A DNA stretch of 64,000 nucleotides from Bradyrhizobium sediminis. Its GTDB lineage: Bacteria > Pseudomonadota > Alphaproteobacteria > Rhizobiales > Xanthobacteraceae. The notes below the pieces were generated by a model that saw nothing but the letters and a program-made list of their open reading frames with translations, was not told the DNA's origin and did not search any database. Made by a program: the position numbers and the translations under genes. The stretch lies in contig NZ_CP076135.1 of the NCBI RefSeq assembly GCF_018736105.1, forward strand, positions 1,920,001-1,984,000, given 5' to 3'. This document shows positions 50,696-63,953 of the stretch, piece after piece (the stretch's first letter is position 1; every line of letters starts with the position of its first letter).

Positions 50696-50891
50696 GCGCT
50701 GACATGAAGCTCTGCGCGCGGTTCGCCCCGATCAGGCGAGGCTCGATCGGATGGTCCCTAGTTTCACGGAAATTTAAACTAACCGAACCTAACAACCTTG
50801 AGCGGTATTCGCGTCACAGCGCCGGCCGCGCGCGGGATTTGATTCGCCAGGGCAAATCCCGATTCCAAGAAGAAAAAGAAGGTTGGATGAA

Positions 50892-52922
50892 ATGATCAAG
50901 CTCAATCGCATCGGCAACAAGCTCGGTCTCGCCGGCGCTATCGGCGTTTTGCTGGCGATCGGCATGGTCGCCAATCAGATGGTGACGGAGTCCACGGTGG
51001 CCGGAGCGAGCGATCGCGCTGATCGATCCCAACGCGTGGCCGAAAGCACCCTCACGGCGCACCTCAACATGCGGCAGGTGCAACTCGCCGCCCGCGGCAT
51101 CAGGTTGGCAAGCACCCGGTCCGAAGTGGACAGGGGCGTCGCCGAGATGCGCCAGTTTGGCGCGGTCGAAATGAAGGAGATCGAAGCCGCATTGGCGAGC
51201 GCGCAAAGGCCCGAGACCAGGCAGCGGTTACAGAACATCAAGTCGCTGATGACCGACTACGCCGCCGGCACCGAGGAGCTTGCGAAAGCCCAAGGTGATC
51301 TGCTGGCGCAGATCGGCAAGCGGTCGGTGATCTCCGATGAGTGGACCAAGGCCATCGAATCCGAATTGGCATCGCCGGCGCTGGCTGACTTGCCGAACCG
51401 TCCGGAAATAGAAAAGCTGCTGTACCAGGCGGACGGCGGCGTGAACGCGATACGGGCGGCGGCATGGCGGTTCGGGGGCACTGGTGACGTCGAACAGCTG
51501 GGGGCGATCGCGATTGCCGAAGGGACGGTCAAGGATGCCTTGAAATCCGCGCGCAAGCAGACCGATGACAAGGAATTCCACGGCAGGATCGACTCGCTGG
51601 AATCCATTATCAAGAAATTTCTCGTTGCCAATGGCGATGTCGTCAGGTCCGAGGAATTGAAGGCCGAGATCACGACCAATCGGACGATCAAGGTCGTCAA
51701 CGAGGCCGGCGAATTGATGGAAGCGGCCGTTGCGAGCGCGCAGAAGGATATGAACACCTCGAAGGAGGAGGTCGTGGCCGCGACTGCGCAGGCCAACCGG
51801 ATCAGCATGGCGATGGCAGTCGTGGTGGTGATTTCGCTGATCGGGTCGGTGATCTTCTCTTTCCTCGGCATTGCGCGTCCGATGACCCGGCTGAACGGTG
51901 CGCTGGGTGAGATGGCCGGTGGCAATCTCGACATCGAGATTCCAGGTGCCAACCGCGGCGACGAGATCGGCGACCTCGCCAAGACCGTGACCGTCATCCG
52001 CGAGAACGCCGAGCAGAAGGCCCGCGACGAAGCGGAAGCCAAGATCGAGCAGGATCAGATCGCGGCCCAACGGCGCAAGGCCGACATGATCAAGCTCGCC
52101 GACGACTTCGAAGGCGCCGTCGGCGAGATCGTCGAGACCGTGTCTTCGGCTTCATCCGAACTCGAAACCTCTGCCGGCACGCTGACCTCGACTGCGGAAC
52201 GGGCGCAGGAGCTGACCACGGCGGTCGCGGCGGCCTCCGAGGAAGCCTCCACCAACGTTCAGTCGGTGGCTTCCGCGACCGAGGAAATGGCGTCGTCCGT
52301 CAACGAGATCAGCCGTCAGGTCCAGGAATCGGCGCGGATGGCCAATGAGGCCGTCGACCAGACGCGCAGGACCAACGATCGCGTCAGCGCGTTGTCGAAG
52401 GCCGCGGCCCGCATCGGCGACGTGGTCGAACTGATCAATACCATCGCGGAACAGACCAACCTGCTGGCGCTCAACGCCACCATCGAGGCGGCGCGCGCCG
52501 GCGAAGCCGGCCGCGGCTTCGCGGTGGTGGCTTCCGAGGTCAAGGCACTGGCCGAACAGACCGCGAAGGCGACCGGCGAGATCGGCCAGCAGATCGCCGG
52601 CATTCAGGCGGCGACCCAGGAGTCGGTCGGCGCCATCCAGGAAATCAGCAGCACCATCGAGAAGCTGTCGGAGATCTCGTCGACCATCGCGGCGGCGGTG
52701 GAAGAGCAGGGTGCGGCGACGCAGGAGATTTCCCGCAACGTGCAGCAGGCGGCGCACGGCACCCAGCAGGTCTCGTCGAACATCACCGACGTGCAGCGCG
52801 GCGCCAGCGAGACCGGATCGGCGTCCTCGCAGGTTCTTTCCGCTGCGCAGTCGCTGTCCGGCGATAGCAACCGCCTCAAGCTCGAGGTCAGCAAATTCCT
52901 GAGTTCGGTACGGGCGGCCTGA
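50892..52922 (+). CDS. Methyl-accepting chemotaxis protein (first of tandem pair)
   Basis: 676 residues from ATG 50892. One membrane helix (about 12-31) leads to a long all-helical periplasmic domain, HBM-like in length, then a second helix near 305-325 ([19 protein letters not shown]), HAMP ([20 protein letters not shown]) and a cytoplasmic signalling domain with hairpin tip [20 protein letters not shown]. Glu520 occupies the position of Tsr Phe373. It ends SVRAA, with no CheR/CheB tether pentapeptide. From HAMP onward it is nearly identical to the next gene, whereas sensor domains differ. Confidence 0.95.
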
Positions 52923-53125: not shown

Positions 53126-55156
53126 ATGATCAAGCTCAATCGCATCGGAAACAAGCTGGGTCTGGCCGGTGTCGTCGGCGTACTGCTGGCGGTCGGCATG
53201 GCGGCCAACCAGATGATGACCGAATCGGTTGTAGCCGGATCAACCGAACGCGCCGACCGGTCGCAACGGGTGGCCGACAATGCGCTCGGGGCGAATCTGG
53301 ATCTGCGCAAGATGCAGCTCACCGCCCGCGAGGTCAGATTGGCAAGGACCCCCGCAGACGTCGAAAAGATCGTCGCCGACCTGCAACGCTTCAAGGCATC
53401 CGAAGCCCAGGAACTGGATGCCGCGCTGACGAGCGCGCAGAAGCCGGAGACCAGGGAACGACTTGGGAAGATCAAGTCCTTGATGGACAGCTTCGCGTCC
53501 GCCGTGGAAGATCTGGCGAAAACCCAAACCACGCTGCTCGCGCAGATCGACAAGCGCTCGGAGATATCCGTTGAATGGACCAAGGCCATCGATGCCGAAC
53601 TGGCTTCACCGGCGCTGGCCAAGCTGGACAATCGCACCGAGATCGAAAAGCTGCTGCATAAGGCCGACGCCAAGGTGAACGCGCTGCAGGCCATGGTCTG
53701 GCGGCTGGGCGCGACCGGCGATTCAAGCTTGAGCGCCTTAATTGCGAAGACCCAGGCCGCGCTCAAGGCCAATTTCAATGAGTTGCGGGGCGAGGCTGAC
53801 GACAGGGACTTGCTGGTCGTGATCAGCTCCATGGACAAGATCGTGAAACGCTTCCTGGCCGCCAATGACGAGGTCGTCAAGAGCGAGGAATTGAAGGCCG
53901 ATATCATTACAAATCGCACGGTCAAGGTTGTCGCCGACGCTGCCGAGTTGATGGAATTGACGGTCGCCAACGCGCAAAAGAATGCGAAAGCTTCCAAGGA
54001 CGAGGTCGTTGCCGAAACGGTGCAGGCCAACCGGATCAACCTGATCATGACCGTCGTCGTTGTCCTGTCGCTGATCGTGTCGGTGATGTTCTCCTTCCTG
54101 GGGATTGCGCGTCCGATGATGCGGCTGAACGGTGCGCTGGGCGAGATGGCCGGCGGCAATCTCGACATCGAGATTCCAGGTGCCAACCGCGGCGACGAGA
54201 TCGGCGACCTCGCCAAGACCGTGACCGTCATCCGCGAGAACGCCGAGCAGAAGGCGCGCGACGAAGCGGAAGCCAAGATCGAGCAGGATCAGATCGCAGC
54301 CCAACGGCGCAAGGCCGACATGATCAAGCTCGCAGACGACTTTGAAGGCGCGGTCGGTGAGATCGTCGAGACCGTGTCTTCGGCTTCAACCGAACTCGAA
54401 GCTTCCGCCGGCACGCTGACCTCGACCGCGGAACGGGCGCAGGAGCTGACCACGGCGGTCGCGGCCGCCTCCGAGGAAGCCTCCACCAATGTGCAGTCGG
54501 TGGCATCCGCGACCGAGGAAATGGCGTCGTCCGTCAACGAGATCAGCCGTCAGGTCCAGGAATCGGCGCGGATGGCCAATGAGGCGGTCGGCCAGGCCCG
54601 CACCACGACCGATCGGGTCAGCGAATTGTCGAAGGCGGCCGCGCGGATCGGCGACGTGGTCGAACTGATCAATACCATCGCCGGGCAGACCAATCTGCTG
54701 GCGCTCAACGCTACCATCGAAGCGGCACGCGCCGGCGAAGCCGGCCGCGGATTCGCGGTGGTGGCCTCCGAGGTCAAGGCACTGGCCGAGCAGACCGCGA
54801 AGGCGACCGGCGAGATCGGCCAGCAGATCACCGGCATTCAGGCGGCGACCCAGGACTCGGTCAACGCCATCAAGGAAATCAGCGGCACCATCGAGAAGCT
54901 GTCGGAGATCTCGTCGACCATCGCGGCGGCGGTGGAAGAGCAGGGCGCGGCGACGCAGGAGATTTCCCGCAACGTGCAGCAGGCGGCGCACGGGACCCAG
55001 CAGGTCTCGTCGAACATCACCGACGTGCAGCGCGGCGCCAGCGAGACCGGATCGGCCTCTTCGCAGGTTCTTTCAGCGGCGCAGTCGCTGTCTGGTGACA
55101 GCAACCGCCTCAAGCTCGAGGTCGGAAGATTCCTCGACTCGGTGCGGGCGGCCTGA
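53126..55156 (+). CDS. Methyl-accepting chemotaxis protein (second of tandem pair)
   Basis: 676 residues, GGAGGG upstream of ATG 53126. Same architecture as its neighbour: TM1, long helical sensor, TM2 (IMTVVVVLSLIVSVMFSFLG), HAMP and signalling hairpin. The hairpin tip reads [20 protein letters not shown], so residue 520 is Gly where the sister and most homologues of this class have Glu. The sensor half is clearly diverged, which implies a different ligand. A TTAACC/GGTTAA inverted repeat lies upstream at 53038-53056. Confidence 0.95.
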   Translation: MIKLNRIGNKLGLAGVVGVLLAVGMAANQMMTESVVAGSTERADRSQRVADNALGANLDLRKMQLTAREVRLARTPADVEKIVADLQRFKASEAQELDAALTSAQKPETRERLGKIKSLMDSFASAVEDLAKTQTTLLAQIDKRSEISVEWTKAIDAELASPALAKLDNRTEIEKLLHKADAKVNALQAMVWRLGATGDSSLSALIAKTQAALKANFNELRGEADDRDLLVVISSMDKIVKRFLAANDEVVKSEELKADIITNRTVKVVADAAELMELTVANAQKNAKASKDEVVAETVQANRINLIMTVVVVLSLIVSVMFSFLGIARPMMRLNGALGEMAGGNLDIEIPGANRGDEIGDLAKTVTVIRENAEQKARDEAEAKIEQDQIAAQRRKADMIKLADDFEGAVGEIVETVSSASTELEASAGTLTSTAERAQELTTAVAAASEEASTNVQSVASATEEMASSVNEISRQVQESARMANEAVGQARTTTDRVSELSKAAARIGDVVELINTIAGQTNLLALNATIEAARAGEAGRGFAVVASEVKALAEQTAKATGEIGQQITGIQAATQDSVNAIKEISGTIEKLSEISSTIAAAVEEQGAATQEISRNVQQAAHGTQQVSSNITDVQRGASETGSASSQVLSAAQSLSGDSNRLKLEVGRFLDSVRAA

Positions 55157-55190: not shown

Positions 55191-56705
55191 TTACGTCACT
55201 CGCCACTCCAGCACGCCGTCTTCGGCCGTGGCGATATCGCCAAGCGAGCCCACCGGCGTGCGGTCCATGTTCGTTAGATGCGCCAGCGTCGCGCCGTCGT
55301 TGGCGGGCACCCGCGCCAGCGCGCGGCAATCATTGGCCGTCCGCATCATCACCACGCCGTGCTCGACCTCGCCGCTGCGGCCATAGAGCACGGTAAAGCT
55401 TTCGACCTTGCCCTTGCCGCTGGCCTCGGTGACGAATTCGGGCACCTTGCCGCGATGCCGGTCGGCTTCCGCCTGCACGCTGGTATCCTGCGCCAGCGCG
55501 TGCCCAGGCGCCTGCCGCGACAACACCAGTCCGTGATGCTTGGTGACGAAGCCGCCCTGGCCGTAGAGCAGGCCGAGCTTCGCGCCGCCGCGCAAGCGGC
55601 GCACCATCGCGCAGGCCGCATGCGTCATGTAGGTGTTGAGCGGCGCGCCGAAGAAGGTGAGACCGCCGGTCACCGTCGGCTGCACCTCGGGGCCGAGGCC
55701 CAGCGTCCGCCGCGCCATTTTCGGCACGCAGGGAAAGCAGCTGTAGAGTTCGATCGCGTCGAACTTCCTGCCGTCGCCGCCGGCCAGCTCCATCACCGAC
55801 TTGAGCACGGCATTCTGGGGATGGCTCTCGTAGAACTGGTCGCGGATGAGATAATCCCGCGGCTCCTCCGCCGAAGCGCCGCCCCAGACGTGAACGATGC
55901 GATCCTCGGGCACGCCCGAGGCCCGCGCCTTGGCAAGGCTGGTCAGGAGAACGGCCCCGCCCATATTGACGGTCGGATTGGCCACCATCAGCTTGTTGTA
56001 GGGCCACGCGATCAGACGGTTGTCCGGCGTCGGCGTCGTGATCTCCTCAGGGCTGAAGCGCCGCTTCAGCCAGGCATTGGGGTTTTCCGACGCCACCTTT
56101 GAATAGACCGACCAGAGCGCGCCCGATTCCGCCATCGCCTCGCGCGGAGTCTGGCCCCAATGCGCCGAGGTCGCGGTCTCGTAGAGCGGATAGACGGTGA
56201 TCGGCCTGAACACGCCGAGCTTCACGGCCATCGGTTTCTGGAACGCGGCGCCGCGCTTCGGCTCTTCCACGTCATGGGCGAAGGGCGTCCATGGCAGTTC
56301 GATCTTGGCGCGCTCGGCCTTGGTTGCGGTCGACTGCGCTTCGGCGCCGCAGACCGCGGCGACGCTGCATTCGCCGCGCGCGATGCGTTGCGCGGCCTCG
56401 TGTAGATAGCGGATCGGGCTTTCGCCGCCGACCGGGCCGTAATAGAGGTGTGCCGGCTTGATGCCGAGACGGCCGGCAAGCTGTTTCTCCGGATCGCGGT
56501 AGCGCCAGCTCAGGAAATTGACGACGTCGAGCGAGCCGATGTCACCGAGCATTTTGCCGCCTGAGTCAGCTTCCGCGCGCTTCAGCGCTTGTTCCAGCAA
56601 GGCGAGCGGCTCGAGGCCATCGGCGATTTCCTTCGGTCGATCGGTGATTTCGCCGACGCCGACAATGACGGGGATGCGGTCGTCGGATTGCGCTGCGTTT
56701 GCCAT
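55191..56705 (-). CDS. Thiolase-like protein without catalytic residues (TLP1-like)
   Basis: 504 residues. The fold follows thiolase (IPVIVGVGEITDRP, IARGECSVAAVCGAEAQST, FDAIELYSCFPCVP). However, the position of the nucleophilic Cys is Gly94 in YYGPVGGESPIR, the GHP motif reads GAP (353-355) and the C-terminal CxG is replaced by YGQGG. Residues from about 405 form an extra C-terminal domain ending VLEWRVT, as in mycobacterial thiolase-like protein type 1. It is usually labelled acetyl-CoA acetyltransferase, but that activity is doubtful. Divergent from the Baeyer-Villiger monooxygenase. Confidence 0.85.
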   Translation of the reverse strand: MANAAQSDDRIPVIVGVGEITDRPKEIADGLEPLALLEQALKRAEADSGGKMLGDIGSLDVVNFLSWRYRDPEKQLAGRLGIKPAHLYYGPVGGESPIRYLHEAAQRIARGECSVAAVCGAEAQSTATKAERAKIELPWTPFAHDVEEPKRGAAFQKPMAVKLGVFRPITVYPLYETATSAHWGQTPREAMAESGALWSVYSKVASENPNAWLKRRFSPEEITTPTPDNRLIAWPYNKLMVANPTVNMGGAVLLTSLAKARASGVPEDRIVHVWGGASAEEPRDYLIRDQFYESHPQNAVLKSVMELAGGDGRKFDAIELYSCFPCVPKMARRTLGLGPEVQPTVTGGLTFFGAPLNTYMTHAACAMVRRLRGGAKLGLLYGQGGFVTKHHGLVLSRQAPGHALAQDTSVQAEADRHRGKVPEFVTEASGKGKVESFTVLYGRSGEVEHGVVMMRTANDCRALARVPANDGATLAHLTNMDRTPVGSLGDIATAEDGVLEWRVT

Positions 56706-57023: not shown

Positions 57024-58697
57024 ATGTCCGCCGTGCAATCCATTTCAGGCAAAGGCCAGCCCGCAGGCACCGAGGTTTACGACGTCGTCGTGGTCGGCGC
57101 GGGTTTTGCCGGCATGTACGCGCTGCATAAGCTGCGCGGGCAGGGATTGTCGGTTCGGGTCTATGAGCAGGGCGGCGACGTCGGCGGCACCTGGTACTGG
57201 AACCGTTACCCCGGGGCGCGCTGCGATGTCGAAAGCATGCAGTATTCCTATTCGTTCTCGGACGAACTGCAGCAGGAATGGAACTGGAGCGAGCGCTACG
57301 CGCCGCAGCCCGAGATTCTGAAATACGCCAACCATGTCGCCGACCGTTTCAAGCTGCGCAGCGACATTCAGCTGAATACCCGCGTCGATTGGGCGGCCTT
57401 CCACGAAAGTTCAAACACATGGTCGGTGACGACCTCCGACGGCAAGACGGTAATGGCGAAACACGTCGTGCTCGCCACCGGCTGCCTGTCGAACGCGCGC
57501 GTGCCCGATATCAAGGGTCTGTCGGATTTCAAGGGCAAGGTTTACCACACCGGCAACTGGCCGCATGAACGGATAGATTTCACCGGCCTGCGCGTCGGCG
57601 TCATCGGCACGGGATCGTCGGCGATCCAGTCGGTGCCCATCATTGCCGAGCAGGCGAACCAGCTCACGGTGTTCCAGCGCACGGCCAACTTCAGCGTGCC
57701 CGCCCGCAACGCCGCGCTGACGGCGGAGGAGCGCGAGGCGTTTCGCGCAAAATACCCGGAAATCAGGCGCTTTGCGCGGGAAGAGGCGCGTAACGGCATC
57801 TATACCGAGATGCCTGACAAGGGCGCGCTCGACGACGGCGATAACGAGCGGCGCTCGAAATACGAATCGCGCTGGAGCCGCGGCGGCCTGACCTTCATGA
57901 TGGCCTACAACAATCTGGCGCTCGACAAGGCCGCCAACGACACCGCCGCCGATTTCGTCCGCGACAAGATCGCCGAGATCGTCAAGGATCCGAAAACCGC
58001 AAAGTTGCTGCAGCCCGACAACCATCCGATCGGGTCGAAGCGCATCTGCGTCGATACTGATTACTACGCGACCTTCAATCGTCCGAACGTGACGCTGGTC
58101 GACATCAGGTCGAATCCGATTCAGGAGATCCTGCCCAACGCGGTGCGGACCGCGGATAAGGATTACGAAGTCGACGCGCTGGTCCTCGCAACCGGCTTCG
58201 ACGCCATGACGGGTTCAGTTGCAAAGATCGACATCCGCGGACGTAACGGGCAGACGCTGAATCAGAAATGGGCCGAGGGCCCCAAGACCTATCTCGGCCT
58301 GATGAGCGCTGGCTTCCCCAATCTGTTCATCATCACCGGTCCCGGCAGTCCGTCGGTACTCTCCAACATGATCGTTTCGATCGAGCAGCATGTCGACTGG
58401 ATCACCGACTGCATCGCCCATATGCGCGACCGCGGCATCGACACCATCGAAGCTAACAAGGCCGCCGAGGACAAGTGGGTGGCGCACGTCAACGAAGTCG
58501 CCCAGGGCACGCTCTATCCGCAGGCCAATTCCTGGTATATGGGCGCCAACATCCCCGGCAAGCCACAGGTCTTCATGCCCTATATCGGCGGCGTCGGGGT
58601 TTACAGGCAGATTTGCAGCGACGTCGCGGCCAGGGGCTATGAAGGCTTTACGATGACGGCGGCAGAGCAGCCGCAAAGAGCGGTGGCGCTATCGTAG
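57024..58697 (+). CDS. Type I Baeyer-Villiger monooxygenase (cyclohexanone monooxygenase-like)
   Basis: 557 residues. FAD site GAGFAG (25-30) with GGTWYWNRYPGARCD, the Baeyer-Villiger fingerprint FKGKVYHTGNWP (169-180), second nucleotide fold VIGTGSSAIQ and ATGFDAMTG are all present. It inserts oxygen next to a ketone, using NADPH and O2, to make esters or lactones in the cytosol. Length matches cyclohexanone monooxygenase (about 540). A flavin reductase and acyl-CoA genes follow on the other strand. The natural ketone is unknown. Confidence 0.94.
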   Translation: MSAVQSISGKGQPAGTEVYDVVVVGAGFAGMYALHKLRGQGLSVRVYEQGGDVGGTWYWNRYPGARCDVESMQYSYSFSDELQQEWNWSERYAPQPEILKYANHVADRFKLRSDIQLNTRVDWAAFHESSNTWSVTTSDGKTVMAKHVVLATGCLSNARVPDIKGLSDFKGKVYHTGNWPHERIDFTGLRVGVIGTGSSAIQSVPIIAEQANQLTVFQRTANFSVPARNAALTAEEREAFRAKYPEIRRFAREEARNGIYTEMPDKGALDDGDNERRSKYESRWSRGGLTFMMAYNNLALDKAANDTAADFVRDKIAEIVKDPKTAKLLQPDNHPIGSKRICVDTDYYATFNRPNVTLVDIRSNPIQEILPNAVRTADKDYEVDALVLATGFDAMTGSVAKIDIRGRNGQTLNQKWAEGPKTYLGLMSAGFPNLFIITGPGSPSVLSNMIVSIEQHVDWITDCIAHMRDRGIDTIEANKAAEDKWVAHVNEVAQGTLYPQANSWYMGANIPGKPQVFMPYIGGVGVYRQICSDVAARGYEGFTMTAAEQPQRAVALS

Positions 58698-58714: not shown

Positions 58715-59332
58715 TCACGCGGCAGGTCCCCCTTCGGCCGGCGGGAACACGATTCGGTCGTCGGTGCGGCAGTAGCGGTCGGCGAACATACGGCCGACCG
58801 GGTGATAGCGGTCCATGTTAACCCGCATCGAGGCGGCATCCCACAATTCGTCGCGGATGTGGAAATGGATGCCTTCGCCCATGATCAGCTGCCGGTTTCC
58901 GTTCACATCGATCGTCTTCCAGGTCCTGCACTCCATCGCCCACGGCGCGCCGGCCAGTCGCGGCACACCGACTTTTGTCGATGGCGCGAGTTTCAGGCCG
59001 AGGTAATCGGGCTCGCCGATTTCAGGCGGAAAGTCGCCGCTGGAATCGTGCATCGCGCGCGCCAGCGGTTCATCCGTGAGGTTGACCACGAACTCGCCGG
59101 TGCGCTGGATGTTGACCACCGTGTCCTTGACGCGACCGTCGGGCCGCGGGTTGGCGGCGAACATGCAGAGCGGCGGATCCTCGCAGAACACGTTGAAGAA
59201 GCTGAACGGCGCGGCGTTGACCACGCCTGTCGGTCCGATCGTCGTTACCCAGGCGATCGGCCGCGGCAGGACGAACCCCGTCAGCACCTTGTAGCGTTCA
59301 CGGGACGTCAGATCCTCTGGGGCGTATTCCAT
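58715..59332 (-). CDS. Flavin reductase family protein (FMN-binding split barrel)
   Basis: 205 residues. LTGFVLPRPIAWVTTIGPTG and VNAAPFSFFNVFCEDPPLCM are the flavin-binding signature of the DIM6/NTAB flavin reductases. It supplies reduced FMN or acts on its own as a small oxidoreductase. The adjacent monooxygenase carries its own NADPH site and does not need it. It ends the SDR-acyl-CoA dehydrogenase-flavin reductase strand run, 78 bp after the dehydrogenase. Confidence 0.9.
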   Translation of the reverse strand: MEYAPEDLTSRERYKVLTGFVLPRPIAWVTTIGPTGVVNAAPFSFFNVFCEDPPLCMFAANPRPDGRVKDTVVNIQRTGEFVVNLTDEPLARAMHDSSGDFPPEIGEPDYLGLKLAPSTKVGVPRLAGAPWAMECRTWKTIDVNGNRQLIMGEGIHFHIRDELWDAASMRVNMDRYHPVGRMFADRYCRTDDRIVFPPAEGGPAA

Positions 59333-59410: not shown

Positions 59411-60685
59411 CTACGGCATGCTCAACTCGTGGCGGCCGACCACCATCCAGTGCACTTCGTCGGGACCGTCGGCGAAGCGGAGGTGGCGCACGTCGGTGTA
59501 CATTTCGGCCAGCGGCGTCCATTGCGAAATGCCGGTGGCGCCGTGCATCTGGATCGCCTGGTCGATGATCCTGGCGGCGCGCTCGGGCACCATGGCCTTG
59601 ACCATGCTGACCCAGATGCGCGCGTCCTTGTTGCCGAGCACGTCCATCGCCTTGGCGGCCTTCAGCACCATCAGCCGCATCGCCTCGATTTCGCAACGCG
59701 CCTGCGCGATAATCTGCAGATTGCCGCCGAGATGCGCGATCTTCTTGCCGAAGGCCTCGCGCGTCAGGCCGCGTGAAACCATCAGGTCGAGCGCCTTTTC
59801 CGCCTTGCCGATCGTCCGCATGCAGTGATGGATCCGGCCCGGCCCGAGGCGGACCTGCGAGATCTCGAAACCGCGGCCTTCGCCGAGCAGCATGTTGTCC
59901 TTGGGAACCCTGACATTGTTGAAGCGCAGATGCATGTGACCGCGCGGGGCATGGTCGTGGCCGAACACGTGCATCGGCCCAATGATCTCGACGCCGGGCG
60001 TGTCCTTCGGCACCAGAATCTGCGACTGTTGCTTGCTCGGCGGCGCGTCCGGATTGGTCTTCACCATCACGATCATGATCTTGCAGCGGGGGTCGCCGAG
60101 ACCGGAGATGTAGTATTTTTCACCGTTGATCACCCATTCGTCGCCGACGAGCTTTGCCGTGGTCGAGATGTTCTTGGCGTCGGACGACGCGACGTTCGGC
60201 TCGGTCATCGCATAGGCGGAGCGGATTTCACCGTTCAACAGCGGCTTCAGCCACTTCTCCTTCTGCGCCTTGGTGCCGACGCGCTCAAGCACTTCCATGT
60301 TGCCGGTGTCCGGCGCCGAGCAGTTCATGGTCTCCGAGGCCAGCGGGCTCTTGCCCAGTTCGGCGGCGATATAGGCGTAGTCGAGATTCTTCAGGCCTTC
60401 GCCGGTCTCCGCATCGGGCAGGAAGAAGTTCCACAGTCCGACTTCCTTGGCCTTGTCCTTGGCTTTTCCCAACACCTCGAGCTGCTGGGGCGTGAAGCTC
60501 CAGCGATCGGTTTTCTTCTCGCCATGCCGATAAAACTCGACCGACATCGGCTCGACCGTTTCCCGGATGAACTTTCGCACATGATCGTAAAGAGGCCGGA
60601 CCCGATCCGACATTCTGAGATCGTTGAGTTCGTCCTCCGGATTGAGGGTGTAGGACGTCATTCGGGGCACGTAGTCATGTTTCAT
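59411..60685 (-). CDS. Acyl-CoA dehydrogenase family protein, ACAD10/11 (LvaC-like) type
   Basis: 424 residues. The FAD/acyl-CoA motifs are YAMTEPNVASSDAKNI, INGEKYYISGLGDPR and the C-terminal MHGATGISQWTPLAEMYTDV with LRFADGPDEVH. The ADGPDEVH ending is typical of ACAD10/ACAD11-type dehydrogenases, which act on phosphorylated 4-hydroxyacyl-CoAs rather than plain acyl-CoAs. An APH-type kinase and DUF6285 partner lie in the facing operon. The assignment is by motif and context; ordinary acyl-CoA dehydrogenation remains possible. Confidence 0.88.
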   Translation of the reverse strand: MKHDYVPRMTSYTLNPEDELNDLRMSDRVRPLYDHVRKFIRETVEPMSVEFYRHGEKKTDRWSFTPQQLEVLGKAKDKAKEVGLWNFFLPDAETGEGLKNLDYAYIAAELGKSPLASETMNCSAPDTGNMEVLERVGTKAQKEKWLKPLLNGEIRSAYAMTEPNVASSDAKNISTTAKLVGDEWVINGEKYYISGLGDPRCKIMIVMVKTNPDAPPSKQQSQILVPKDTPGVEIIGPMHVFGHDHAPRGHMHLRFNNVRVPKDNMLLGEGRGFEISQVRLGPGRIHHCMRTIGKAEKALDLMVSRGLTREAFGKKIAHLGGNLQIIAQARCEIEAMRLMVLKAAKAMDVLGNKDARIWVSMVKAMVPERAARIIDQAIQMHGATGISQWTPLAEMYTDVRHLRFADGPDEVHWMVVGRHELSMP

Positions 60686-60842
60686 CTGGTGATCCTCCCA
60701 TTCGTGCAGATCGTTGCTGCCCCATTGCCGGGCGATCTGTCTGAAGCGCTCTTGCTGGATAGTCTAGACGCCCGCCCGGCCTTTACAAGCAGGCGGAGCA
60801 GGCGAGTTCTTCAGGTGCCGGGTTTGTCCGCGTCGCGGAAAA

Positions 60843-61622
60843 TCAGAACGCGGTATAGCCGCCGTCGATCACGAAACAGTCGGCGGTGTGGTAGGACGAC
60901 GCCTTGCTCATCAGATAGACGGCAATGCCGCCGAAATCCGAGGGCTCGCCGAACCGCCGCACCGGGATCCGCGGCATCACATTGGCGACGAACTTGTCGT
61001 TGGCCATGATGCCCGCGGTCATGTCGCTCTTGATCCAGCCGGGCAGGATGGCGTTGGCGGTGACGCCGTAGCGGGCCAGTTCGACCGCGAGCGCGCGGCA
61101 TAGCGCGTTGATGCCGGCCTTGGTCGCGGCGTAGTGCTCGTTGCGCGCGGTGCCGAACAGCGAGGCGAGGCTCGAGGTCGCGACCAGCCGGCCGAAGGCA
61201 TCGCCCGATGCGGCGCGCTCGGTCATGTGCCGGGCGGCGGCCTGAAACACGTGGAATACGCCGTCGAGGTTGGTGGCGAACATCGTGCGCCATTCTTCCT
61301 CACTGCGATCGATGAAGGCCCGCCTGCCGCCGCCGCCGATGCCGGCATTGGCGAAGCAGCCGTCGACCCGGCCGAAGCTGTCCAGCGTCGCGGCCATGGC
61401 AGCCTTGACCGAAGCGGCGTCGCTGACATCGCAGACACGGGTATCGATCTTGCCCTTCGCACCCGCCATGGTCGCCGCAGCGGCCTTGTTCTTGTCGGCG
61501 TTGCGGCCCCAGATCGAGACGTTGCAGCCGGCGGCGGCCAGCGCCTGCGCGATGCCAAGTCCGATGCCGCCGTTACCGCCGGTGATGACGGCGACGCGGC
61601 CGGTGAGGTCGAAAATGCTCAT
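60843..61622 (-). CDS. Short-chain dehydrogenase/reductase
   Basis: 259 residues from ATG 61622 (GAAACTCTC region; preceding codons are not SDR-like). Classical motifs are complete: TGGNGGIG, NAGIG, Ser in ATSSLASLFG, YAATK and LPGWIKSDM. It probably oxidises or reduces a 3-hydroxyacyl intermediate with NAD(P). It heads the minus-strand unit with the acyl-CoA dehydrogenase (157 bp gap), in the place of LvaD in the levulinate operon. Confidence 0.9.
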   Translation of the reverse strand: MSIFDLTGRVAVITGGNGGIGLGIAQALAAAGCNVSIWGRNADKNKAAAATMAGAKGKIDTRVCDVSDAASVKAAMAATLDSFGRVDGCFANAGIGGGGRRAFIDRSEEEWRTMFATNLDGVFHVFQAAARHMTERAASGDAFGRLVATSSLASLFGTARNEHYAATKAGINALCRALAVELARYGVTANAILPGWIKSDMTAGIMANDKFVANVMPRIPVRRFGEPSDFGGIAVYLMSKASSYHTADCFVIDGGYTAF

Positions 61623-61697
61623 GAGAGTTTCCTTTGGGGTGTTTTCATTTGGTCTGGCGCGCTTTAGATGTGCGTCCGATGGCGGGCAGGTGTTCTG

Positions 61698-61711
61698 GTC
61701 CAACCATGGAC
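61698..61711. promoter_or_regulatory. Short inverted repeat in the SDR / enoyl-CoA hydratase divergent promoter
   Basis: GTCCA-ACCA-TGGAC, perfect five-base arms, is central in the 177 bp divergent region of the two acyl-CoA units. It could be a shared operator, but such short repeats occur by chance. Confidence 0.22.
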
Positions 61712-61799
61712 AAGGCCGCACAGAAAATCAAATATGGCCCGAGAGTTCAGATCCGGCCCACCGCGGCTTACAACGCGGGCTACAACGCACGAGGAAACA

Positions 61800-62591
61800 A
61801 TGCAATTCAAGCACGTCACGCTCGATTTCGATGGACCGGTCGCGGTTCTCAAGCTCGACCATCAGGAGGTCATGAACGCGGTCTCCATCGATATGCTGGG
61901 CGGTCTCGGCGAGGCGCTCGACGCCATCGACGAGAAGAAGGCGGAGGTGCGTTGCCTCGTTCTGACCGGCGCGGGCCGCGCATTCTGCACCGGCGCCAAT
62001 CTGCAGGGCCGCAACAACCAGAAGCCGGGCAGGAGCAATGCGGGTTCTTCGCTCGAAACCGCATTCCATCCGTTCCTGCGCCGTCTGCGCAACCTGCATT
62101 GCCCGATCGTCACCTCGGTCAACGGTCCGGCCGCCGGCGCCGGCATGAGCTTCGCGCTGATGGGCGACATCATCCTGTGCGCGCGCTCGTCGTATTTCCT
62201 GCAGGCGTTCCGCCGCATCGGCCTGGTGCCGGATTGCGGCTCGACCTGGCTGTTGCCGCGGCTGATCGGCAAGGCGCGCTCGGTGGAGCTGTCGCTGCTC
62301 GGCGAACGGCTGCCGGCCGAGAAGGCGCTGGAATGGGGGCTGGTCAACCGGGTCTGTGACGACGCGGCCCTGACGGAAGAGACCATGAAGCTCGCCCATG
62401 AGCTGGCGAACGGCCCGACTATCGCGCTGTCGCTGATCCGCAAGATGTACTGGGAGAGCCCCGACAACTCGTTCGAGGAGCAGCTCAACCTCGAATTCGA
62501 ATCGCAGCGGCTGGCGGGTTCGGCGGAAGATTTCAAGGAGGGCGTCACCGCGTTCCTCGAGAAGCGCCCCGCAAAGTTCAAGGGCAAATGA
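61800..62591 (+). CDS. Enoyl-CoA hydratase/isomerase family protein
   Basis: 263 residues from ATG 61800 (ACGAGGAAACA upstream). Crotonase motifs are GAGRAFCTGANLQG, NGPAAGAGMSFALMGD and FRRIGLVPDCGSTWLLPR. The acid at FRRIGLVPD is as in PaaG/ECHA-like isomerase-hydratases. It would hydrate or isomerise enoyl-CoAs formed by the dehydrogenase. Its stop overlaps the kinase start (ATGATGG). Confidence 0.92.
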   Translation: MQFKHVTLDFDGPVAVLKLDHQEVMNAVSIDMLGGLGEALDAIDEKKAEVRCLVLTGAGRAFCTGANLQGRNNQKPGRSNAGSSLETAFHPFLRRLRNLHCPIVTSVNGPAAGAGMSFALMGDIILCARSSYFLQAFRRIGLVPDCGSTWLLPRLIGKARSVELSLLGERLPAEKALEWGLVNRVCDDAALTEETMKLAHELANGPTIALSLIRKMYWESPDNSFEEQLNLEFESQRLAGSAEDFKEGVTAFLEKRPAKFKGK

Positions 62592-63577
62592 TGGAGCAAG
62601 CGCTCGGGCGTTGCGTCACGACGTGGTGTGCGGGCGCGACCGGCGTGATCAACGCGGCCCGGCTCTCCGGCGGCGCCAGCCAGGAGACCTGGTCGTTCGA
62701 CATCGTCCATCCCGGCGGCAACATCGGCGCGATCCTGCGCCGCGCGCCGCCGGGCTATGGGGCGGCGCCCTCGCGTGCGGCCGGGCTCGATGCCGAGGCC
62801 ATCCTGATGCAGCGCGCCTACGACGCGGGCGTGCCGTCGCCGCGGGTGCTGCATGTGCTGCAGCCGCAGGACGAACTCGGCACCGGCTTCATCATGGCGC
62901 GGGTCGAGGGCGAAACCATCCCGCGCAAGATTTTGCGCGACACCGAGTTTGCATCGGCACGTCCGATCCTGGCGCGCCAGATCGGCAAGGTGCTGGCCGG
63001 CATCCACGGCCTGGGGCTGGCGCAACTGCCGGAACTGCGCCGCATGACGGCGGCCAGGGAAATCGACGAGTTCGAACGCGACTACCGCAGCCTCGATTGG
63101 CCGCGGCCGGTGTTCGAACTGGCGCTGCGCTGGCTGCGCGACCACGATCCCGGACCATCCGGGGAAGTGACGCTGGTGCACGGCGATTTCCGCCACGGCA
63201 ATCTCATCATCGGCCCCGACGGCGTGCGAGCGGTGCTGGACTGGGAGCTTGCGCATTTCGGCGATCCGATGGAGGACCTCGGCTGGGTCTGCGTCAATTC
63301 GTGGCGCTTCGGCGAGATCGACAAGCCCGTCGGCGGTTTCGGCACGCGCGAGGAACTGTTTGCCGGCTACGAACAGGCCGGTCACCGCGTCGATCCCGAT
63401 CGCGTCAAATTCTGGGAAGTGATGGGCACGCTGCGCTGGGGCATCATGTGCTGCGGCATGATGCAGCGCTTTCGCCTCTCGCCCGAGCACTCCATCGAGC
63501 GCGCCATGATCGGCCGCCGCTCCTCGGAAACCGAGATCGATTTGTTGCGGTTGCTTGCGCCGAGAGAGCGAGGCTGA
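62588..63577 (+). CDS. APH-type phosphotransferase, 4-hydroxyacyl-CoA kinase-like (LvaA / ACAD10-11 kinase domain)
   Basis: 329 residues from ATG 62588 or 62591. ATP-binding glycine-type LSGGASQETWSFD, catalytic loop VHGDFRHGNLIIGPDG and metal motif VLDWELAHFGDPMEDLGWVC are complete, so it should be active. The DWELAxxGDPxxDL pattern is that of ACAD10/11 kinase domains and of P. putida LvaA, which phosphorylates 4-hydroxyvaleryl-CoA. The DUF6285 gene follows directly (1 bp gap). Confidence 0.88.
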   Translation: MMEQALGRCVTTWCAGATGVINAARLSGGASQETWSFDIVHPGGNIGAILRRAPPGYGAAPSRAAGLDAEAILMQRAYDAGVPSPRVLHVLQPQDELGTGFIMARVEGETIPRKILRDTEFASARPILARQIGKVLAGIHGLGLAQLPELRRMTAAREIDEFERDYRSLDWPRPVFELALRWLRDHDPGPSGEVTLVHGDFRHGNLIIGPDGVRAVLDWELAHFGDPMEDLGWVCVNSWRFGEIDKPVGGFGTREELFAGYEQAGHRVDPDRVKFWEVMGTLRWGIMCCGMMQRFRLSPEHSIERAMIGRRSSETEIDLLRLLAPRERG

Positions 63578-63578
63578 G

Positions 63579-63953
63579 ATGCAGGACGAACCGACACCGG
63601 AAGAACTTGTCAAGGCGGTTGCGGATTTTCTGCGCAACGACATCTCGCCGCTGATCAGCGGACACAACGCGTTCAAGCTGCGGGTTTCGATCAACGCGCT
63701 GGATCTGGTGACGCGGCAACTCGAGCTGGAAGCGGGCAGCGATACGGCGGAACTCGCCCGGCTCTCGCAACTGCTCGGCCAGCAGGGCTTGCTCGGCGAA
63801 CTCAACCGCATGCTTGCCGATCGCATCGCCAGCGGCGAGGCCGATCTGCAAACGCCGGGGTTAGCCGAGCACCTCTGGCAGACCACGATGGACAAGCTCG
63901 CGGTCGACCAGCCGAACTACGGCTCGTACAAGCGGGAGTTGGGGACGAAGTAG
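63579..63953 (+). CDS. DUF6285 protein (LvaB-like kinase partner)
   Basis: 124 residues from ATG 63579, immediately after the kinase stop. It is all-helical: DEPTPEELVKAVADFLRNDI, FKLRVSINALDLVTRQLELE and a conserved ending DKLAVDQPNYGSYKREL. It has no membrane segment or metal motif. It normally sits beside APH-type kinases; LvaB of P. putida, a similar-sized protein, is required for LvaA activity. Equating it to LvaB is inference from size and context. Confidence 0.85.
   Translation: MQDEPTPEELVKAVADFLRNDISPLISGHNAFKLRVSINALDLVTRQLELEAGSDTAELARLSQLLGQQGLLGELNRMLADRIASGEADLQTPGLAEHLWQTTMDKLAVDQPNYGSYKRELGTK

Follow-up and report, generated by a model that had tools for sequence, protein, structure and literature searches.

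On balance, we favour the view that the genes at positions 59411 to 63953 of the window (the whole 64,000-nucleotide stretch of DNA that was analysed) form part of an ATP-dependent hydroxyacyl-CoA kinase module of a second lineage, separate from LvaA; its kinase, composed of an APH catalytic subunit and a DUF6285 subunit, would act on a predicted substrate with its hydroxyl most likely at C4. This view is based on gene families, active-site signatures, clade positions, synteny within the genus, genome-wide co-occurrence and natural fusions. In the proposed route, a CoA ligase encoded just beyond the window would make the acyl-CoA, and the kinase-DUF6285 pair would phosphorylate a hydroxyl of this putative substrate, most likely the one at C4. 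The phosphate would then be eliminated by acyl-CoA dehydrogenase (ACAD) chemistry, yielding an enoyl-CoA for beta-oxidation. The eliminating enzyme in this genus would be the ACAD10/11-type dehydrogenase of the window (ACADw), which has a complete signature, while a second dehydrogenase, ACAD2, and a PaaG-like crotonase may be the most constant co-workers of the lineage; how ACADw and ACAD2 share the work, and which way each step runs, are as we infer them.

In the levulinate (Lva) pathway, the hydroxyl group of a fatty-acid CoA ester is phosphorylated, which enables its removal (described in parts of PMC6692424, PMC11342911 and PMC12440821). Such ATP-driven hydroxyl removal from acyl-CoAs was assigned to bacterial and mammalian genes only recently (2017 and 2024-2025; work cited in parts of PMC11342911 and PMC12440821). 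As judged from sequence, the kinase branch considered here differs from LvaA and travels with a different, unstudied dehydrogenase, ACAD2. Should this lineage prove to be a second module served by a dehydrogenase of its own, the reaction would extend beyond LvaA-C and ACAD10/11, DUF6285 could be recognised as a kinase subunit, and the unassigned ACAD2 genes would have a role open to testing. Such a module would also reveal which parts of the chemistry are essential, those of a closed flavin cycle or those of an open series of dehydrogenation, elimination and reduction.

Gene layout and the kinase-DUF6285 pair

The five gene types named in a preliminary description of this DNA were all confirmed by family matches and as open frames ending at the coordinates given below, and their divergent layout was as described. 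Encoded on the minus strand are ACADw (59411..60685), which carries the R626/H634/R637/D753 signature, and an SDR-family oxidoreductase assigned by family match (60843..61622). The plus strand encodes a crotonase-family protein (61800..62591), PaaG-like and likely an enoyl-CoA isomerase, followed by an APH-family kinase of 329 aa (62588..63577; PF01636, 122 bits) and the DUF6285 protein (63579..63953; PF19802, 108 bits with a cut-off of 28.1), which are the LvaA-like catalytic subunit and its LvaB-type partner, respectively. The crotonase end and the kinase start overlap by 4 bases, and the starts given for the crotonase, SDR and DUF6285 genes sit inside somewhat longer open frames. Downstream of ACADw lies a gene for a flavin-reductase-domain protein (58715..59332, minus strand; domain match), which adjoins ACADw also in genomes G001, G015 and G022; in G015, where ACADw is 4.2 Mb from the pair by contig coordinates, this copy is far from the kinase. 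The cluster continues past the window edge: ACAD2 starts approximately 1 kb beyond it, which is why the preliminary description missed this gene, and two AMP-dependent CoA ligases, encoded outside the window at 3.2 and 7.0 kb from its end, contradict its statement that a CoA ligase is lacking. At 3.497 Mb the genome additionally encodes a separate kinase and ACAD of ACAD10 type.

Gene order was kept across the genus. In the 20 kb read for each of 19 primary loci, the kinase, DUF6285 and crotonase genes were present in 19/19, the SDR in 18/19 and ACADw in 17/19, with at least one CoA ligase in 17/19. Genes for a thiolase-like protein and for a monooxygenase of Baeyer-Villiger type also lie near the module, and the monooxygenase was seen in 6/19 genus loci only.

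On family evidence, the kinase and the DUF6285 protein are assigned as an LvaA/LvaB-type pair, as had been proposed. In a Pseudomonas lva operon, a protein annotated as LvaB likewise matches PF19802 (85 bits), and the window kinase matched LvaA of that operon with 35% identity (152 bits), compared with 28% identity (70 bits) for the ACAD10-type kinase of its own genome. Among the LvaA-like loci (80 kept of 114 found), the stretch around each locus contained DUF6285 in 79 and a signature ACAD in 70. The catalytic HGDxxxxN, the DWE motif and the alpha-C Glu are all in place in the window kinase. An alignment comprised 33 non-LvaA rows and 20 from the LvaA clade; catalytic H, D, R and N, like D and E in the DWE motif, were invariant throughout, and the alpha-C Glu was kept in 32 of the 33 non-LvaA rows, the exception being Asp. 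As for the CoA contacts of the ACAD11 kinase, R86 is replaced by Ala in the window kinase and R176 is Arg; neither is conserved among DUF6285-partnered kinases, and R86 is absent from the LvaA-clade rows too. The LvaA clade, with 100% bootstrap, excluded the window kinase in both trees. By this kinase lineage we mean all that is left once the LvaA clade is set aside; this remainder has weakly supported inner nodes and may be paraphyletic.

Eight natural kinase-DUF6285 fusions were found, and an AlphaFold2 model of one of them reached pLDDT 94.8 and pTM 0.93. AlphaFold2 models the DUF6285 protein of the window as all-helical. A known fold for DUF6285 was rejected since no PDB match fell under E 3.6, and a text search found no paper on this family in the literature collection that was used. 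Assignment of the window kinase as an antibiotic APH was likewise rejected, its NCBIfam matches being far below cut-off.

Relation of the locus to known systems

ACADw matched mouse ACAD11 (8v3u) with 390 bits, compared with 138 bits for its best match outside the ACAD11-like group. Alignment to 8v3u and 8v3v showed that it keeps all five tested ACAD10/11-type active-site positions (RRHRD); the roles of R626, H634, R637 and D753 in mouse ACAD11 are covered in part of PMC12440821. Its earlier designation as an ACAD10/11-type dehydrogenase thus holds. ACADw is 31% identical to LvaC versus 55% to the ACAD10-type protein of the same genome. Identities of 62% and 56% between LvaC and the ACAD domains of ACAD10/11 are given in part of PMC11342911; our values of 31-35%, which differ from these figures, are for LvaC-type proteins of Pseudomonas lva operons other than that of P. 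putida KT2440, compared with the ACAD10-type protein of this genome in place of ACAD10. The SDR showed 33% identity to LvaD and, in neighbour clustering, fell outside the cluster that contained the SDRs of 13/15 LvaA-clade loci. Because the kinase is not a member of the LvaA clade, ACADw is of ACAD10/11 type and the SDR is not LvaD-like, the correspondence to LvaA-D that had been proposed stands as one of type and fails as one of orthology. The LvaA/LvaB-type pair together with the ACAD10/11/LvaC signature in ACADw nevertheless makes an Lva-like route of phosphorylation and elimination plausible.

Like LvaABCDE of Pseudomonas putida, the locus combines an APH kinase and its DUF6285 subunit with an ACAD of R/H/R/D signature, an SDR and nearby CoA ligases. 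Unlike Lva, it adds ACAD2, the PaaG-like crotonase and a DECR1-like reductase. In agreement with the preliminary description, no levulinate regulator (LvaR-/PrpR-like) was matched within C1:1970000-1989999, nor was an LvaG-/ActP-like transporter. The resemblance of ACADw to mammalian ACAD10/ACAD11 contrasts with the gene arrangement, since kinase and ACAD are fused in the mammalian proteins and are separate genes on opposite strands in the window; moreover, the window kinase has a DUF6285 partner and no R86. An APH-fold kinase is also found in 25-HSK, the 25-hydroxysteroid kinase of Sterolibacterium denitrificans, which serves ATP-dependent dehydration (part of PMC8449060). Its substrate, however, is a sterol with a tertiary C25 hydroxyl. 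25-HSK is not known to have a DUF6285 or ACAD partner.

ACAD2 and co-occurrence across genomes

We considered a class sample of 190 alphaproteobacterial genomes, comprising 30 with a pair outside the LvaA clade, 15 with an LvaA-clade pair and 145 without a pair; Fisher tests on co-occurrence treat these genomes as independent. ACAD2 was present in 28/30, 0/15 and 1/145 of them, respectively, and the PaaG-like crotonase in 23/30, 0/15 and 5/145. ACADw orthologues (at least 72% identity) were found in 12/30, 0/15 and 1/145, so that the pair was present in 12 of the 13 genomes with such an orthologue; at this cut-off, ACADw was absent from 18 of the 30 lineage genomes. Some ACAD10/11-type match at E 1e-120, a criterion of score and not of per-genome signature, occurred in 29/30 lineage genomes, and such matches were seen in 29/145 pairless genomes. 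ACAD2 is the most constant partner of this kinase lineage found here. It was encoded within 7.5 kb of the pair in 9/30 non-LvaA loci versus 4/30 for a signature ACAD (the window locus is in both counts, and at L045 a signature ACAD lies slightly beyond 7.5 kb), and no ACADw beside the pair was seen in the 8 stretches read outside the genus.

The active-site alignment showed that ACAD2 lacks the phosphate-binding residues. An invariant basic block, HI[YF]RHHRRYRIT, precedes its catalytic Glu. Beyond the alphaproteobacteria, ACAD2 also adjoins kinases of this type in Nocardia and in haloarchaea. In Nonomuraea such a kinase adjoins a signature ACAD, with no ACAD2 at 1e-80 in the 11.85-Mb record; this locus, the 18 lineage genomes without ACADw, its distance from the pair in G015, the possible paraphyly of the lineage and the resemblance of the kinase to 25-HSK weigh against the favoured view. 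A 159-aa haloarchaeal ORF beside ACAD2 was rejected as a proven DUF6285 (no Pfam match, hhalign probability 3.8).

We regard it as a tentative possibility that, in this kinase lineage, the ACAD10/11 reaction runs in an open form through ACAD2. ACAD2 would then stand for a new family of phospho-acyl-CoA dehydrogenases, with members in alphaproteobacteria, in an actinobacterium and in haloarchaea. In such a version ACAD2, a dehydrogenase that has a Glu base and lacks the known pocket for phosphate, would dehydrogenate the 4-phosphoacyl-CoA, and loss of the phosphate would give a 2,4-dienoyl-CoA. The DECR1-like reductase would reduce this product, after which the PaaG-like isomerase would restore a 2-enoyl-CoA. 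Electrons would pass to ETF and hydride would come from NADPH, rather than both cycling on a single flavin.

Alternative readings of the cluster

That the cluster is simply an Lva-like module, as originally read, is consistent with its parts by type, the complete signature of ACADw, the gene order conserved in the genus and the tracking of the pair by ACADw orthologues. We nevertheless consider this reading rather unlikely, because the kinase, ACAD and SDR all fall outside the Lva groups, the LvaR-like regulator and ActP-like transporter were unmatched in the interval searched, ACADw leaves the pair's side in the extra-genus stretches, and ACAD2 is near the pair more often than a signature ACAD is. 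An ordinary beta-oxidation island, with co-occurrence arising from lipid-rich lifestyles and the kinase and ACAD2 acting in unrelated steps, appears unlikely. Genomes do carry many ACADs (29 matches in G000) and the co-occurring genes are often unlinked, but ACAD2 is far more specific among pairless and LvaA-clade genomes than ACAD10/11-type matches are among pairless ones, and its company with the kinase extends to Nocardia and haloarchaea.

It is quite improbable that the kinase, in the manner of 25-HSK, serves an ATP-dependent dehydration by phosphorylating some non-fatty acyl chain, such as a hydroxylated terpenoid or a steroid-like one. When the fusion model was compared with known folds, structure 9ft5 of 25-HSK ranked second (5.6e-11, 20% identity in the fold alignment), the window kinase matches 25-HSK in sequence with 43 bits, the monooxygenase and thiolase-like protein lie nearby, and the phosphate-eliminating lyase acting after 25-HSK was reported as unknown in 2021 (part of PMC8449060). 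The kinase is, however, closer to LvaA and ACAD10-type kinases, the monooxygenase is confined to a minority of genus loci and the cluster is dominated by CoA-ester enzymes. In addition, the 1.4-Mb genomes G089 and G214, which are unlikely to belong to steroid degraders, retain both the pair and ACAD2.

Gene content and conservation of the cluster

The window spans C1:1920001-1984000 of a single-contig genome of 5.45 Mb, whose gene content suggests Bradyrhizobium or a close relative. Family matches on its forward strand place a crotonase-family gene (61800-62591), an APH-family kinase (62588-63577) and a DUF6285 gene (63579-63953) in a row, the last being the single DUF6285 match in a search of this genome. 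On the reverse strand they identify an SDR (60843-61622), the acyl-CoA dehydrogenase ACADw (59411-60685) and a flavin-reductase-domain gene (58715-59332). The preliminary description had proposed a phosphorylation module of the type found in the levulinate (Lva) pathway of Pseudomonas putida, and such a module indeed exists in the form of the kinase and DUF6285 pair; the protein annotated LvaB in a Pseudomonas plasmid lva operon (L043) is also PF19802. It had further reported no CoA ligase, which had to be revised, as two lie just past the window end. There the cluster continues with a crotonase, a second dehydrogenase (ACAD2; frame C1:1984893-1986335, contig coordinates), a CoA ligase, a 2,4-dienoyl-CoA-reductase-like SDR (DECR1-like; Decr1 7ucw, 7e-60), another crotonase and the second CoA ligase. 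The window crotonase is PaaG-like (4fzw_C, 3e-67), PaaG being an isomerase of enoyl-CoAs.

Conservation was assessed in 20 stretches of 20 kb from 19 same-genus genomes (19 primary loci plus L070, a second copy). Kinase, DUF6285 and crotonase were present in 19/19 primary loci, the SDR, ACAD2 and the DECR1-like reductase in 18 each, ACADw and the second CoA ligase in 17 each, and the first CoA ligase in 16. ACADw lay apart in two genomes, at ~12 kb in G001 and at 4.2 Mb (contig coordinates) in G015, and in G006 ACAD2 was found ~60 kb away, next to the same crotonase. A Baeyer-Villiger-type flavin monooxygenase (57024-58697) adjoins the module and is probably outside its core, because only 6/19 genus loci have it. 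Also nearby are a thiolase-like protein with the TLP1 extra C-terminal domain (55191-56705; PRK08257.1-5, above cut-off) and, upstream of the cluster, two similar tandem genes for methyl-accepting chemotaxis proteins (50883-52922 and 53126-55156); a similar gene adjoins the cluster in L051, L065 and L069. Elsewhere in the genome, L005 (5873-11954; C1:3.493-3.499 Mb) carries a separate ACAD10-type kinase and signature ACAD, accompanied by histidine phosphatase-like and SDR genes, a predicted second hydroxyacyl-CoA phosphorylation set.

Kinase lineages and the DUF6285 partner

A scan for relatives with LvaA of L043 found 114, of which 80 were kept; within the stretch examined per locus, DUF6285 accompanied 79 of these and a signature ACAD (with the phosphoacyl-CoA residues R626, H634, R637 and D753, mouse ACAD11 numbering) 70. 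A first tree was built from 59 of the 74 kinases collected, after 15 copies from the genus had been set aside. In it, a long branch parted DUF6285-partnered kinases from ACAD10-type kinases, and the window kinase fell outside an LvaA clade with 100% support. The identical clade, again at 100%, was recovered from a second tree of 47 kinases (one locus per genome for the 45 genomes in the class sample that carry the pair) and seven references. Judged from these sequences, the module is not an Lva module and belongs instead to a sister lineage. Since the nodes among kinases outside the LvaA clade were weak in the second tree, what we call this lineage is the remainder and may be paraphyletic.

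Eight natural kinase-DUF6285 fusions occurred among the loci read, and L285 looks like a ninth. The AlphaFold2 model of one fusion (105 rows; pLDDT 94.8, pTM 0.93) suggests that DUF6285 packs against the kinase. Modeled alone (57 rows; pLDDT 87.8, pTM 0.58), the window DUF6285 was all helical and had no fold match in the PDB. In seven loci (L117, 5850-7952; L116, L120, L122, L131, L133, L136) a large gene, which we take from the L117 sequence for recG, is found close to the pair; six of these loci share a second large gene of ~1200 aa, perhaps mfd as a guess from length. Some LvaA-clade operons have a histidine phosphatase family gene after DUF6285 (L044, 9301-10062; L046, 8318-8971), which possibly clears stray phosphoesters.

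The two dehydrogenases

ACADw keeps R626, R631, H634, R637 and D753 of mouse ACAD11 (roles as given in section 7 of PMC12440821). Its identity is 55% with the ACAD10-type protein encoded at 3.497 Mb of this genome and 31% with LvaC. The five ACAD11 positions are occupied in ACAD2 by F, R, Q, S and E, so that its sequence predicts a Glu base without the phosphate-binding set; the block HI[YF]RHHRRYRIT precedes this catalytic Glu in 30/30 orthologue sequences. A signature ACAD lay within 7.5 kb of the pair in 15/15 LvaA-clade loci versus 4/30 others, and ACAD2 in 0/15 versus 9/30, where the window's own locus scored under both among the 30. This comparison omitted the near-duplicates L121, L123, L144 and L147, as well as the remaining 19 genus loci, and retained L070.

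For ACAD10/11 it has been proposed that a 4-phosphoacyl-CoA is dehydrogenated and loses phosphate to give a 2,4-dienoyl-CoA, to which hydride returns from the flavin (PMC11342911, section 13; PMC12440821). ACADw can be expected to follow such a sequence here, with substrate and hydroxyl position putative. An open version of the reaction would run through ACAD2, the DECR1-like reductase and the PaaG-like protein, all of which are encoded in the genus cluster; for the reductase, the evidence comes from that cluster only. The portions considered of PMC11342911, PMC12440821, PMC6692424 and PMC8449060 give no phospho-acyl-CoA role for the ACAD2 family.

Distribution in the class and beyond

One set of 190 alphaproteobacterial genomes was used for DUF6285, ACADw, ACAD2 and the crotonase. 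DUF6285 was present in 45, 15 with LvaA-clade kinases and 30 with other kinases. ACAD2 occurred in 28/30 genomes of this lineage, 0/15 LvaA-clade genomes and 1/145 pairless genomes (G165), and its family is the most constant partner found for the window's kinase lineage. The corresponding counts were 12, 0 and 1 (G177, 83% complete) for ACADw orthologues, delimited by the gap between 72% and 58% identity; 29, 0 and 29 for ACAD10/11-type matches (E 1e-120 or better); and 23, 0 and 5 for the crotonase (E 1e-70 or better). Fisher p values for the 30 against all other genomes ranged from 3e-10 to 5e-30; they take no account of shared ancestry and should not be read as probabilities of function. 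The two within-family contrasts examined agreed in direction (f30, G185 versus G052; f36, G058 versus G190). The two lineage genomes lacking ACAD2, G047 and G084, have kinases in a group adjoining the LvaA clade; the kinase of G041, a genome with ACAD2, is in that group too.

Two findings speak against an exclusive link: a Nonomuraea kinase 51% identical to the window's adjoins a signature ACAD, while the 11.85-Mb record that holds it gave no ACAD2 match at 1e-80, and Variovorax and Cupriavidus pairs adjoin other dehydrogenases. Of 72,556 plasmid records, 12 have ACAD2-family genes at E 1e-80 or better, the next match being 35% identical. Rhodobacteraceae QY30 has ACAD2 and no kinase within 7 kb. 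By coordinates, the kinase lies 0.45 kb from ACAD2 in five Sulfitobacter records, and in Nocardia farcinica DUF6285, kinase and ACAD2 are consecutive. In haloarchaea, ACAD2, a 159-aa ORF and a kinase occur together in three records read (of five); in two haloarchaea an acetoacetate-decarboxylase-family gene is divergent from ACAD2 (L413, 5994-6779; L414, 6044-6841).
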